21,876 bases of DNA from a virus: the IMG/VR virus record IMGVR_UViG_3300035670_013251, positions 1 through 21,876 of that record. One strand, written 5' to 3'. Position numbers and translations under genes: made by a program. Below, in pieces: positions 9,115 to 12,863 of the stretch; the stretch's first letter is position 1, and every line of letters starts with the position of its first letter. The notes under the pieces are model-generated. The model did no database searches. It was not told the DNA's origin and saw only the letters and a list, made by a program, of their open reading frames with translations.

Positions 9115-9557
9115 CCTTTCGCTTCGCGCGCATCAAGCGCGGCAAGGCCCCGCGTGATGGCGCCCAGCGCCTCTTCGGCTTCCTTTCGGGCGCGGCGGCG
9201 GTGGTCGGGATTGTTGGTGGTGGCGGCTTCAAGCAGGGCCGAAACGGCCTCGCCGCTTTCCTTCGCGGCATCGGCGGCGGCTTGCACCAGGTCGGTATCG
9301 GTTTCGGCCCCGGCGATATCCAGCAGCGCGTTGTAAACCTGCCCGAACGGCGCGTGATCGCCGTCCGCTGCAAGGAACGCCTTGTCGAGCCGCAACGCAT
9401 CGAGAATTGAAATCTCGCTATCGGCATCGGGATCGGACCAGTTGCGCACCTGGCGTTCGCTGCGCCCGGTGATCATGGCGCAACGGTCCCACCCGATCCG
9501 GGCGGCGACCACGGTCAAGGCGCGGTGGAAGGTGAAGGGATCGCGGCGCTTGGTCAT
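9111..9557 (-). CDS. CII-like phage regulatory protein
   Basis: A 148-residue protein. The N-terminal part (about 10-60) reads as a DNA-binding helical domain: ALTVVAARIGWDRCAMITGRSERQVRNWSDPD is the pattern of phage regulatory CII / CP76-type proteins, where a helix-turn-helix is followed by WSDPD and an ISILDALRLD helix. The C-terminal part is an Ala-rich, charged coiled helix (90-145) that may mediate oligomerisation. Its place directly after the Cro-like gene and before the late activator fits a role in the early decision or in switching to replication. ATG 9557 overlaps the previous stop as ATGA. Family assignment is by motif memory and moderately firm. Confidence 0.72.
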   Translation of the reverse strand: MTKRRDPFTFHRALTVVAARIGWDRCAMITGRSERQVRNWSDPDADSEISILDALRLDKAFLAADGDHAPFGQVYNALLDIAGAETDTDLVQAAADAAKESGEAVSALLEAATTNNPDHRRRARKEAEEALGAITRGLAALDAREAKG

Positions 9558-9868
9558 GCCGCCGCCCCAAGATCACGATCGCGCTGCAAAACGCGACCGT
9601 TTTGGAAATAGTCATGGCCCTGCCCGCGGTCTACGCCGGTCCATGCGGGCGGAGCGTGGGGAACGTCGAGCGGGTAGATATCGGGGCGAAGACAATGGCG
9701 CGAAACACCAGTGGCGGCTTCGGCCTTGAGTACGAACTCTGCTGGCATCCGCTTGGAGCTTTGGACCCATTTCCATACGGCGGTGCTGGAACAACCTACC
9801 AATCGAGCGAGTGCGGATTGTGAACCAGCCTGCTCTACAGCAGCCATCAGAGCTTCGAAGGGTGTCAT
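9554..9868 (-). CDS. YdaS/Cro-like helix-turn-helix regulator
   Basis: The first gene of the early operon and the likely Cro equivalent opposing the divergent S24 repressor. The 104-residue protein starts MTPFEALMAAVEQAGSQSAL. The helix-turn-helix SALARLVGCSSTAVWKWVQ, then RMPAEFVLKAEAATG and the hallmark SRHCLRPDIYP, match the YdaS-like/Cro family. The last 35 residues are a polar extension. Start choice: ATG 9868 gives the family N-terminus. In-frame ATGs at 9880 and 9916 are possible, but they would put the operator palindrome and the predicted -10 box inside the coding region. The ribosome binding site is weak and the predicted transcript start is only about 13 nt upstream. The stop is coupled to the CII-like gene. 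Confidence 0.85.
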   Translation of the reverse strand: MTPFEALMAAVEQAGSQSALARLVGCSSTAVWKWVQSSKRMPAEFVLKAEAATGVSRHCLRPDIYPLDVPHAPPAWTGVDRGQGHDYFQNGRVLQRDRDLGAAA

Positions 9869-9872
9869 GTCT

Positions 9873-9910
9873 GCAACCATGGTGGAAGCTATGCCTTCCA
9901 CCATGGTTGC
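9873..9910. promoter_or_regulatory. Operator: perfect 16-bp inverted repeat
   Basis: GCAACCATGGTGGAAG at 9873-9888 is repeated in perfect inverted orientation at 9895-9910 across a 6-nt spacer. Each arm itself contains a near-palindrome, AACCATGGTG at 9875-9884 and CACCATGGTT at 9899-9908, with centres 24 bp apart, so it looks like two dimer sites facing each other. It lies between the divergent Cro-like and S24 repressor genes, over the predicted early promoter. Confidence 0.85.
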
Positions 9911-9916
9911 TGTCAA
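9888..9916 (-). promoter_or_regulatory. Predicted early promoter
   Basis: On the minus strand an exact TTGACA (forward 9911-9916) is followed after 17 nt by CATAGC (forward 9888-9893), a weak -10. Operator site 9899-9908 sits inside the spacer and site 9875-9884 covers the predicted start point near 9881, so a bound repressor would block it. Spacing and the exact -35 are seen; promoter activity is inferred. Confidence 0.65.
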
Positions 9917-9942
9917 CCACCAAATTCACAGTGCGCGCCTGT

Positions 9943-9952
9943 AACCTTGGTT
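9943..9952. promoter_or_regulatory. Third operator-like palindrome
   Basis: AACCTTGGTT is a perfect 10-bp palindrome of the same type as the two AACCATGGT sites upstream, centred 44 bp from the second one. It overlaps a TGTAAC (9940-9945) that could be the -10 of the rightward repressor promoter, so it may serve repressor autoregulation. Confidence 0.65.
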
Positions 9953-9965
9953 GTAGTGTCGGGCC

Positions 9966-10670
9966 ATGATCGAGCCTGTCCGTCTGAAAGCCGCTATGAA
10001 GGCGCGTAACATGAGCCAATCCGCGCTGGCACGAGCGGCCGGCATTAGCTCGTCGATGGTCAACAAGCTCGTTAATGGCACTGCTCGTGAAACCGCGCAC
10101 ATTTACGACATCGCAAAGGCGCTTGTTTGTTCACCGGAGTTTCTTTCTGGCGACGCAGACGAGATGGACCTGTCGGGTGCTTTCGAACATCGCCAGTCGT
10201 TCGGCGCTTTCCCGGTGCAGAAGTTCCAGGATGTGGCCGAAGCGGCAGGGCTGGTGCCTGTCCGCCAGGTCGATCTGGCCTATGGCATGGGCGCTACGTT
10301 TCTCGACACCGTGGCCGATGAGATCGCGGTGGAGGAAGTGACCGAATTTTTCCCGGCGCAGTGGTTGCGTCAGTTCACCAAGGCACCGGCGTCAAAGCTG
10401 TTCTTTGCCCAGGGTGTGGGCGATTCGATGGCGCCGACCCTGACCCCCAATGACACGATCATCATCGATACTTCGGTGGATCGCCTGACCATGGCGGACC
10501 AGATCTGGGCCGTGACCTATTGCGGCATGGGCATGATCAAGCGCCTGCGTCCGACCAAGGATGGCGGCGTGCGGATCATGAGCGACAACCCCCACGTCCC
10601 CGAAGAGATCGCCTTTGACGACGAGATGCACCTTGTGGGCCGCGTTGTGGCGGTGATGCGAAAGGTTTGA
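9966..10670 (+). CDS. cI: CI-like repressor, S24 peptidase family
   Basis: Prophage repressor that should bind the 9873-9952 palindromes and keep the lytic operon off. In the 234-residue protein an N-terminal helix-turn-helix (about 12-40, SQSALARAAGISSSMVNKLVNG) is followed by a linker and a C-terminal LexA/S24 domain. The catalytic dyad is visible: Ser154 in GVGDSMAPTL and Lys192 in GMGMIKRLR, 38 residues apart as in LexA. An Ala-Gly cleavage pair is not obvious at the expected distance of about 35-45 residues before Ser154; the segment there reads LAYGMGATF. No Shine-Dalgarno precedes the ATG at 9966, so translation from a leaderless or short-leader mRNA is likely. Its stop is overlapped by the next gene (TTGA). 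Confidence 0.92.
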   Translation: MIEPVRLKAAMKARNMSQSALARAAGISSSMVNKLVNGTARETAHIYDIAKALVCSPEFLSGDADEMDLSGAFEHRQSFGAFPVQKFQDVAEAAGLVPVRQVDLAYGMGATFLDTVADEIAVEEVTEFFPAQWLRQFTKAPASKLFFAQGVGDSMAPTLTPNDTIIIDTSVDRLTMADQIWAVTYCGMGMIKRLRPTKDGGVRIMSDNPHVPEEIAFDDEMHLVGRVVAVMRKV

Positions 10671-11089
10671 ACGGTTTGGCCAGCTTGAATATGATAACTC
10701 TCGTGCTGCCCCTTGCTGCCGCCGCAAGTCTTGCCTCCTGCGGCAGCAGCCCCGATCCAAAACCGGATGGACCATCGGCACCTGTTGCCGCCACATCGTT
10801 GAGTGCTGAACAGCAGCAGGTGAACCTCGAAGGCTGCATGAAACGCATGGAGCATTACCAGCAGATCGGCGTGTGGAAGCACGGCGGTGCCAAGCCCGGC
10901 GTTGCACGCGCTGCATGGGACAAGCTGACCGAAAACGAACAGACCGAAGTGTTTGATGTGGCGGGTTGTATCATGGCCAGCGGGCAGCTTGGTGAGCGCA
11001 TTGTGACGGTGGCCGAAGAAGGCAATGGGCCTGAAATGGACACGCGGCGGGTTGCCAATGACCGGGTGTTTGCGGTGGAGGTGAAATGA
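10667..11089 (+). CDS. Probable prophage lipoprotein, lysogeny operon
   Basis: A 140-residue protein with a hydrophobic N-terminus (ITLVLPLAAAASLASC) ending in a lipobox, Leu22-Ala23-Ser24-Cys25, then a Gly/Ser/Pro-rich tether (GSSPDPKPDG). It would therefore be exported and lipid-anchored after signal peptidase II cleavage. The mature part is soluble and polar, with Cys residues in EGCMKRM and AGCIMAS that may form a disulphide, and it matches no family I know. The n-region has no Lys or Arg, which is unusual. The start is uncertain: TTG 10667 overlaps the repressor stop (TTGA), and ATG 10691 gives a shorter signal. Being expressed with the repressor, it is a candidate lysogenic-conversion gene, for example surface exclusion; this is inference. 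Confidence 0.72.
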   Translation: MNGLASLNMITLVLPLAAAASLASCGSSPDPKPDGPSAPVAATSLSAEQQQVNLEGCMKRMEHYQQIGVWKHGGAKPGVARAAWDKLTENEQTEVFDVAGCIMASGQLGERIVTVAEEGNGPEMDTRRVANDRVFAVEVK

Positions 11090-11826
11090 GCTTCCTTTTG
11101 CGACTGGCCGAGGCGGTGCGCGACAAGGCTGTTCCGGTGCCGCTGCCCGACTGGGCGCGGATCAGCGTGACCGAAGAGATCGATGAAATTATCGAGGCCA
11201 AGGCGCGCGACCAGAGTTCAAGCTGGGCCGGGTACATCCGCTATGTCGACACCAAAGGCGATCTTTCCGAGCGGCGGATCGTTTGCCGCGCAATCGAAGG
11301 TTATGGCAGGGCAGAAACTGTGCAGGGCTGGTGTTGCGAACGCCGCGCCCCACGCCGGTTCAGGATCGACCGGATGCAGGAACTGGTTTGCCTTGAGACA
11401 GGCGAAGTTCTCGATCCGATGGGCCATTTCGAGCAACTTCGCATGTTCGGCGCGCTGAAGGTGACTGACAAATCAATGGCCGATTTCGGGCGCGTGCTGG
11501 CCTTCATGGCGCGCTGCGATGGCGATGTGCATCCGATGGAGACCGAAAGTATCGAGATCGCGCTGGAGCGGTACGTGGTGCGCTTTGGCGGTGATGACCG
11601 GATGCTGGAAACGGCTACCTCCAATGTGCGCAAGATCACGCCGGATGGCGATGATTTCACGGCCGCTCTCTGCAGGCTGGAGAGGCACCCTGATGCGCGC
11701 CAGTTGGGGCGGCTGATGCTGGATTGCGTGGCCAACGTGACGAATGCCGACGGCAGGCTGCACCCGCAAGAGATCGAGTGGGCCGAGCTGGTGCAGGAAA
11801 CGTTGAAGGCGATGGTGACCCGCTAA
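11086..11826 (+). CDS. WYL-like plus TerB-like two-domain protein
   Basis: A 246-residue protein, ATGA-coupled to the lipoprotein gene. Residues about 46-112 resemble a WYL ligand-sensing domain: a beta strand YIRYVDTKGDLSERRIVCRAI, then GWCCERRAPRRFRIDRM and LETGEVLDP. Residues about 131-245 resemble a TerB/DjlA-type helical domain with two acidic metal-binding-like repeats (ARCDGDVHPMETESI at 142-156 and NADGRLHPQEIEW at 220-232). There is no DNA-binding helix-turn-helix before the WYL part, unlike most WYL regulators. WYL and TerB domains both occur in stress and phage-defence loci, so a superinfection or stress-sensing role is possible. The domain calls rest on motif reading only. Its stop overlaps the stop of tail gene D on the other strand. 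Confidence 0.75.
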   Translation: MSFLLRLAEAVRDKAVPVPLPDWARISVTEEIDEIIEAKARDQSSSWAGYIRYVDTKGDLSERRIVCRAIEGYGRAETVQGWCCERRAPRRFRIDRMQELVCLETGEVLDPMGHFEQLRMFGALKVTDKSMADFGRVLAFMARCDGDVHPMETESIEIALERYVVRFGGDDRMLETATSNVRKITPDGDDFTAALCRLERHPDARQLGRLMLDCVANVTNADGRLHPQEIEWAELVQETLKAMVTR

Positions 11827-12863
11827 CCCGCCACTTCCATCTCGATCCGCGTTCTCAATCCGCCTGCGTCCATCGTGTGTTCGGCGCTGGCGATCAGCCA
11901 GGGGGTCTGGTCGATCGCTGCCTTGAAGCCGCTGGCGGTGATGCGCATGCCGGGGGACAGCAGCGGGTTTCCCCAGGCCAGCGTGGCCGAAAGGCTGGCG
12001 GCGGCGCGTTTCAGGCGGTTGGTTTCCGCCGTTGCGGCGGCGCGGGCATCGTCCTGCGATCCATAGACCCGTTTCAGCCGCTTGGGGTTGCTGCCGCCCG
12101 TGGTGTGCGTCTGGCGCCGGTTCTGCGCGGGATCATGCCATTGCGCTTCGGCGCCGTCCTGTGCGCTTTCGCGGGCGGCGCGGCGCCAGTCGATCTGGCT
12201 GCAGCGGCTGCGCAGCAAGACCGCTGCGGGCACCGGGGTGCCCATGGCGGTGGTGGCCGCGCCCTTTGGAGCGAAGATGAGGCACCCGGCCTTGACCACG
12301 GCACTGGCATCGTAGCGCCGCGCCAGATCGCGCAGGAATTGCATGTCGGATTTGTTGCCCTGTTCGGCCACCGCAATCGCGCGGGCGGCAAGATCGGCGT
12401 GGCAGCGCGGGTCCAGACCGTGTTCGGTGGCGATGACGCCGACGATATCGGCCAGCGTTCCGTCCTTCCAGATCCGGTTGCGCCGGGTGCGGAAGCTATC
12501 AGCCAGGTCTGCGCTGCGCGCGGTCAGGGTGATGCGGTCGGGCGGGCCGCTCCATCCCGCTTCATCGACCTTGAACGCGCCCTTGAACACCAGACCGGTG
12601 GATACCTCGGTGCCACGTTCCCAGCCCAGCCAGACCTGCAGCCGCGCGCCAGCGGGCGGAATGGCGACCCGGCCTTGCGAATCGTCCAGTGTGATTTCCA
12701 GTTGATCGGCCTCTTCGCCATCGCGTTCGGACAGGCGCAGGCCGATAAGCAGCGGCGCTAGCCTTGCGGTCAGGTCCTGGCCATCCAGCACCACCCGCCA
12801 CCCGGCGCGGGGCTGGACATAGGCCGAAGGCCCTGCGCGCAGATCGGGCGGAAGGCTGGCCAT
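11823..12863 (-). CDS. D: Tail protein D, baseplate hub (late control protein D)
   Basis: A 346-residue homologue of P2 gpD (387 residues), the T4 gp27-like hub that connects tail tube and spike. The N-terminal barrel includes RAGWRVVLDGQDLTARLAPL and LRLSERDGEEADQLEITLDD, the family signature. The middle carries LADIVGVIATEHGL and SDMQFLRDLARRYDA, and the end has a Thr/Gly-rich linker and LSPGMRITASGF. The start is ATG 12863 (TGATG with gene U); the longer open frame is a shadow of U. It is the last gene of the minus-strand late operon. Its TAG stop shares 4 bp with the TAA of the convergent WYL-TerB gene, and no terminator is seen between them. Confidence 0.93.
   Translation of the reverse strand: MASLPPDLRAGPSAYVQPRAGWRVVLDGQDLTARLAPLLIGLRLSERDGEEADQLEITLDDSQGRVAIPPAGARLQVWLGWERGTEVSTGLVFKGAFKVDEAGWSGPPDRITLTARSADLADSFRTRRNRIWKDGTLADIVGVIATEHGLDPRCHADLAARAIAVAEQGNKSDMQFLRDLARRYDASAVVKAGCLIFAPKGAATTAMGTPVPAAVLLRSRCSQIDWRRAARESAQDGAEAQWHDPAQNRRQTHTTGGSNPKRLKRVYGSQDDARAAATAETNRLKRAAASLSATLAWGNPLLSPGMRITASGFKAAIDQTPWLIASAEHTMDAGGLRTRIEMEVAG

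Follow-up and report, generated by a model that had tools for sequence, protein, structure and literature searches.

A WYL-TerB protein encoded beside prophage repressors is a candidate sensor carried as cargo by P2-like prophages of Sphingomonadales

What a prophage encodes directly behind its repressor, and whether such genes work together, is the question raised by an IMG/VR virus record of 21,876 bases, analysed here at its whole length and called the window. In it a phage repressor gene is followed by genes for a lipobox protein and for a protein that joins a WYL domain to a TerB domain. The window holds a P2-like phage gene set (integrase, primase, tail sheath, baseplate and D), and gene D comparison gave mostly Novosphingobium prophages as its nearest named relatives. 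The three-gene unit is best explained as the lysogeny operon of a Sphingomonadales P2-like prophage whose closest resemblance is to those of Novosphingobium. All three open reading frames of the plus-strand row described in a sequence-only reading of the window are present: S24 repressor, lipobox protein and WYL-TerB protein lie head to tail at 9966-11826, and the genes bordering them at both ends are encoded on the minus strand. Opposite the repressor stand divergent YdaS-type and cII-type genes, the former (9554-9916, minus strand) encoding a YdaS/Cro-like regulator that matches Pfam YdaS_toxin (1.9e-17) and PHROG 35, repressor (1.7e-18). At the other end the WYL-TerB stop overlaps the stop of the convergent gene for a P2 gene D-like tail protein (11823-12863, minus strand; PHROG 52, 2.6e-110), the right border of the cargo slot.

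The repressor (9966-10670, plus strand) consists of a helix-turn-helix plus Peptidase_S24 (Pfam, E = 5e-14). The serine of its GDSM motif and its lysine are conserved, and YGMGAT stands where a clear Ala-Gly cleavage site would be. In the divergent YdaS/repressor switch, the near-palindrome AACCWWGGTT occurs at up to one mismatch at 9875-9884, 9899-9908 and 9943-9952, so that the whole window's total of three sites falls within 9875-9952. Shuffling gave an expectation of 0.84 against the 3 found, and 5 of 100 shuffles reached 3 somewhere in the window; the three are probably operators. The Rfam scan gave no match, and promoter and terminator scans gave no excess over shuffles. The 4-nt stop/start overlaps claimed for this gene row held in part. 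That between the lipoprotein and WYL-TerB genes (ATGA, 11086-11089) is certain; that between the repressor and the lipoprotein gene needs a TTG start at 10667, and the in-frame ATG at 10691 lies 20 nt past the repressor stop. The two starts are equally likely. From this arrangement we infer that WYL-TerB is co-expressed with the repressor in the lysogen.

We then asked what the WYL-TerB protein (11086-11826, plus strand) resembles. Pfam placed WYL (PF13280; 23.4 bits against a gathering score of 21.8, E = 6e-5) at about residues 47-103 and TerB (PF05099; 26.9 bits against 24.4, E = 6e-6) at about residues 129-245. A profile of 12 homologues compared with solved structures matched the WYL domains of PafC, PafBC, Pif1 and BrxR and, weakly, the TerB-like structures 2h5n, 2ou3 and 2jxu. 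The AlphaFold2 model from 20 homologues (mean pLDDT 91.6) predicts a five-stranded barrel at about 47-102 and a helical TerB bundle at 129-245. Foldseek related this model to PafBC, CapW-ssDNA, BrxR, DriD-ssDNA and TerB-like 2h5n/2ou3, with a probability of 1.00 for PafBC, BrxR and 2h5n and of 0.99 for 2ou3. Both domain calls of the sequence-only reading were thus confirmed by Pfam, PDB profiles and AlphaFold/Foldseek. Neither the Pfam scan nor the model contained a helix-turn-helix in WYL-TerB, which supports the view of the protein as a sensor, not a classical regulator.

The residues lining up with a known ligand site were also compared. Mutation of R181, R204, R208, R211 and R214 of PafB abolishes ssDNA binding (PMC11804915), and R63, R86, R90, R93 and R96 of the window protein share the spacing of these five arginines (23, 4, 3, 3), a mapping made by spacing and anchored through a HMMER alignment to PafC. 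Among 33 phage-type copies collected as described below, R63, C83 and F92 show no variation, position 90 holds R or K throughout, 26 copies retain R96 and 20 retain R86. The tyrosine of the WYL motif (Y196, which PafB needs) is absent, with T78 at its place by spacing; Makarova et al. 2014 (PMC4012209) describe the WYL tripeptide as not strongly conserved within the family. In the TerB domain, D145, H149, E152, D222, G223, E229 and W232 are invariant across the 33 copies. No effector motif is visible in WYL-TerB, PADLOC matched its WYL part alone, and to our knowledge TerB has no described enzymatic activity. The WYL-TerB proteins of four loci (L089, L090, L091 and L092) carry N-terminal hydrophobic segments resembling membrane helices, and these segments are the sole hint, read from sequence, to a site of action.

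Having defined the protein, we surveyed its distribution from two directions. A search with gene D, blind to the cargo, returned 20 viral and 5 genome loci, about 21 of them distinct and reaching the cargo slot. WYL-TerB was found in one (L024, 66% identical) and as a truncated copy in another (L021); since it is absent from most of these relatives, it is optional. In L021 (4085-4588) a single junction cuts short both WYL-TerB and gene D, the result of a deletion or of a chimeric assembly. WYL-TerB profile searches of viral contigs and 399 Sphingomonadales genomes, 12 of which gave a match, yielded the 33 distinct phage-type copies. Copies from a viral collection necessarily reside in prophages, a constraint that does not extend to adjacency to a repressor. 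Just downstream of a phage repressor lie 32 of the 33 copies, the upstream same-strand repressor or helix-turn-helix gene being recognized by profile in 29 (two of them weak matches) and by resemblance in 3. The exception is L103; it and L104 break the usual order, which runs ogr, cII and YdaS on one side and repressor, WYL-TerB, cargo and D on the other. Six loci from the 12 matching genomes have a repressor or helix-turn-helix gene directly or one gene upstream. One gene intervenes in five of the 32 repressor-linked copies: the lipoprotein gene in the window, a gene for another exported protein in L024, and a HIRAN-domain gene in L094, L097 and L105.

On the WYL-TerB tree the repressor partner changed between S24 and non-S24 types at least 3 times, 6 by the simplest account, while the slot did not move, and the presence of non-S24 repressors in the same place rules out an S24-specific partnership. 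Twenty phage-type sequences, including that of the window, form a prophage-only clade (SH-aLRT 98). Chromosomal relatives occur in Alphaproteobacteria, some in housekeeping surroundings, and show that the WYL-TerB architecture is not defence-specific. Homologues found only as housekeeping genes were not what the survey returned: there are 33 distinct phage-type copies, though chromosomal relatives exist too. Pattern searches started from the single WYL-TerB or lipoprotein sequence recovered no relatives, and profile alignments succeeded; an annotated phage collection gave one weak WYL-only match or none.

The content of the repressor-D interval varies among related prophages. Between WYL-TerB and D, different prophages carry a Drt6/Drt4-like reverse transcriptase (7e-170) or an FRG gene (PADLOC PDC-S15, 1.5e-36), and relatives without WYL-TerB hold in the same interval Ppl-like (2e-40), AbiZ-like (6e-14), caspase (3.5e-12) and DUF5131 plus TcmP-like genes; many other genes of the interval had no match to anything. 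The claim of a repressor-linked prophage cargo locus is thereby supported, the slot elsewhere holding known or candidate defence genes. Loci L094 (4300-6200) and L097 (4300-6900) are closely alike except that in one of them an FRG gene is inserted precisely between the stops of WYL-TerB and D, which captures a gain or loss of cargo. Also in the repressor-D interval are a caspase-domain protein in L015/L026 (7479-8921), an AAA protein of 955 aa that matches Ppl in L009 (7372-10239), and a second family of small exported proteins, unrelated to the lipoprotein by sequence search, in L024 (8789-9136), L004, L014 and L015/L026. Besides the HIRAN genes lying between repressor and WYL-TerB, others adjoin the repressor in the same slot (L002, 8667-9083; L003, 9475-9903; L007, 8644-9072; L012, 8138-8557). 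In human HLTF the HIRAN domain binds DNA (PMC4666394), and the slot is thus shared by two unrelated modules for nucleic acids.

Does the lipoprotein belong with WYL-TerB? Its gene (10691-11089 from the ATG, plus strand) encodes a lipobox, LASC, at residues 14-17, and Cys17 is invariant in a six-member alignment; the lipobox is missing in the L013 relative as read. The small family has two conserved cysteines (Cys49 and Cys93) and a GVW.HGG..PGV motif. No significant match was found in Pfam, PHROG, NCBIfam or the PDB, and its model (mean pLDDT 78) had no PDB fold match with E below 1. Relatives are encoded in prophages L003, L005/L023 and L013, in L049 beside an S24-type repressor, and in chromosomal L043, where the adjoining gene looks like one for a propionyl-CoA carboxylase subunit; WYL-TerB is absent from all of these loci. 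The initial proposal was that lipoprotein and WYL-TerB form a two-part exclusion or envelope-stress system. Two observations would suit it: in the window their genes are neighbours that overlap by 4 nt, and some WYL-TerB relatives look membrane-anchored. Among the 33 WYL-TerB loci and four other lipoprotein prophage loci, however, the two families meet only in the window: lipoprotein loci are without WYL-TerB, the 32 other phage-type WYL-TerB loci are without the lipoprotein, and L024 has an unrelated small exported protein in its place. This co-occurrence survey rules out a conserved pair, no link to envelope stress was found, and we consider a two-part system very improbable. The lipoprotein is best seen as separate, exchangeable envelope cargo and is a candidate for superinfection exclusion.

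We tentatively favour, at somewhat less than an even chance, the reading that WYL-TerB is a nucleic-acid sensor expressed in the lysogen and carried as optional hotspot cargo, probably protecting the lysogen, with the lipoprotein as independent envelope cargo. WYL-TerB would be made together with the repressor, and its WYL barrel would most likely bind ssDNA, or a nucleic-acid ligand akin to it, that arises upon infection by another phage or upon DNA damage. Binding would be passed to the TerB domain, which, to judge from the membrane-anchored relatives, probably acts at or near the membrane, and the TerB output would limit the superinfecting phage or the damaged cell. Because WYL-TerB stands beside the repressor in some thirty prophages, sometimes near anti-phage genes, it probably guards the infected cell. 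We know of no defence activity of any WYL-TerB protein, and its constant first place after the repressor, which would equally suit a lysogeny regulator, counts against defence.

The main rival to lysogen protection is indeed such a regulator: WYL-TerB may sense ssDNA from damage or infection and tune the phage's own lysis-lysogeny choice through the repressor, the repressor's operator complex or RecA-dependent induction. Even between deeply diverged copies it nearly always stands first or second behind the repressor, HIRAN proteins, another class of DNA-binding module, occupy the same slot, and DriD and PafBC use their WYL domains to sense DNA damage (PMC11804915, PMC12340889). Against tuning, WYL-TerB partners both S24 and non-S24 repressors, the repressor in the window is without a clear Ala-Gly cleavage site, other genes can separate the two, and most relatives selected by gene D lack WYL-TerB. 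The hotspot and the partner switching make protection of the lysogen the better supported of the two, and we regard lysogeny tuning as rather unlikely. A passively carried host stress gene, encoding a stress protein of the metal or tellurite type that plays no part in phage conflict, would fit the TerB domain and the chromosomal relatives beside housekeeping genes in Alphaproteobacteria; the prophage-only clade of 20 and the retained slot beside phage repressors make it improbable, as does the lack of ter genes nearby. No terC/D/E/Z neighbours were present among the open reading frames around the WYL-TerB locus, and a ter tellurite system is ruled out by this absence of partners. More broadly, it is possible, though doubtful, that WYL-TerB and HIRAN proteins belong to a phage-specific, repressor-linked family of ssDNA or nucleic-acid sensors, which would detect foreign or damaged DNA within the lysogen and, via TerB output, link this to prophage defence or to the induction decision.

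Known WYL sensors regulate defence systems or DNA-damage genes; here one is wired to a phage repressor and is without a DNA-binding domain. If WYL-TerB binds ssDNA, lysogens would carry a built-in infection or damage detector, and new defence genes of Sphingomonadales prophages could be sought in the repressor-D slot. A protein of only two domains would also offer a simple case in which to test the role of TerB, long a puzzle.

WYL-TerB fusions as such are already known. Makarova et al. 2014 (PMC4012209) note the same domain combination with reference to Anantharaman et al. 2012, naming it only as one of several WYL fusions; within the accessible portions of the literature on WYL with TerB, the linkage to prophage repressors was found described nowhere. 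The TerB part resembles TerB of ter operons in its fold and in two acidic DG...E motifs; unlike the tellurite-resistance and stress operons, the window locus holds no ter operon partners. Like BrxR, CapW, PafBC and DriD, which are WYL regulators associated with phage defence or DNA damage, the window protein has a WYL barrel with ligand-binding arginines, but in contrast to them it is without a helix-turn-helix, is fused to TerB and is encoded in a phage lysogeny operon. The slot itself recalls the P2-like hotspots of Rousset et al. 2022 (PMC9122126), small high-turnover intervals between conserved phage genes that hold defence genes; a Vibrionaceae P2-related hotspot in the same work begins at the cI repressor. 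Unlike those hotspots, the interval described here runs from the repressor to D in Sphingomonadales-type prophages, with WYL-TerB as its recurrent repressor-proximal member.
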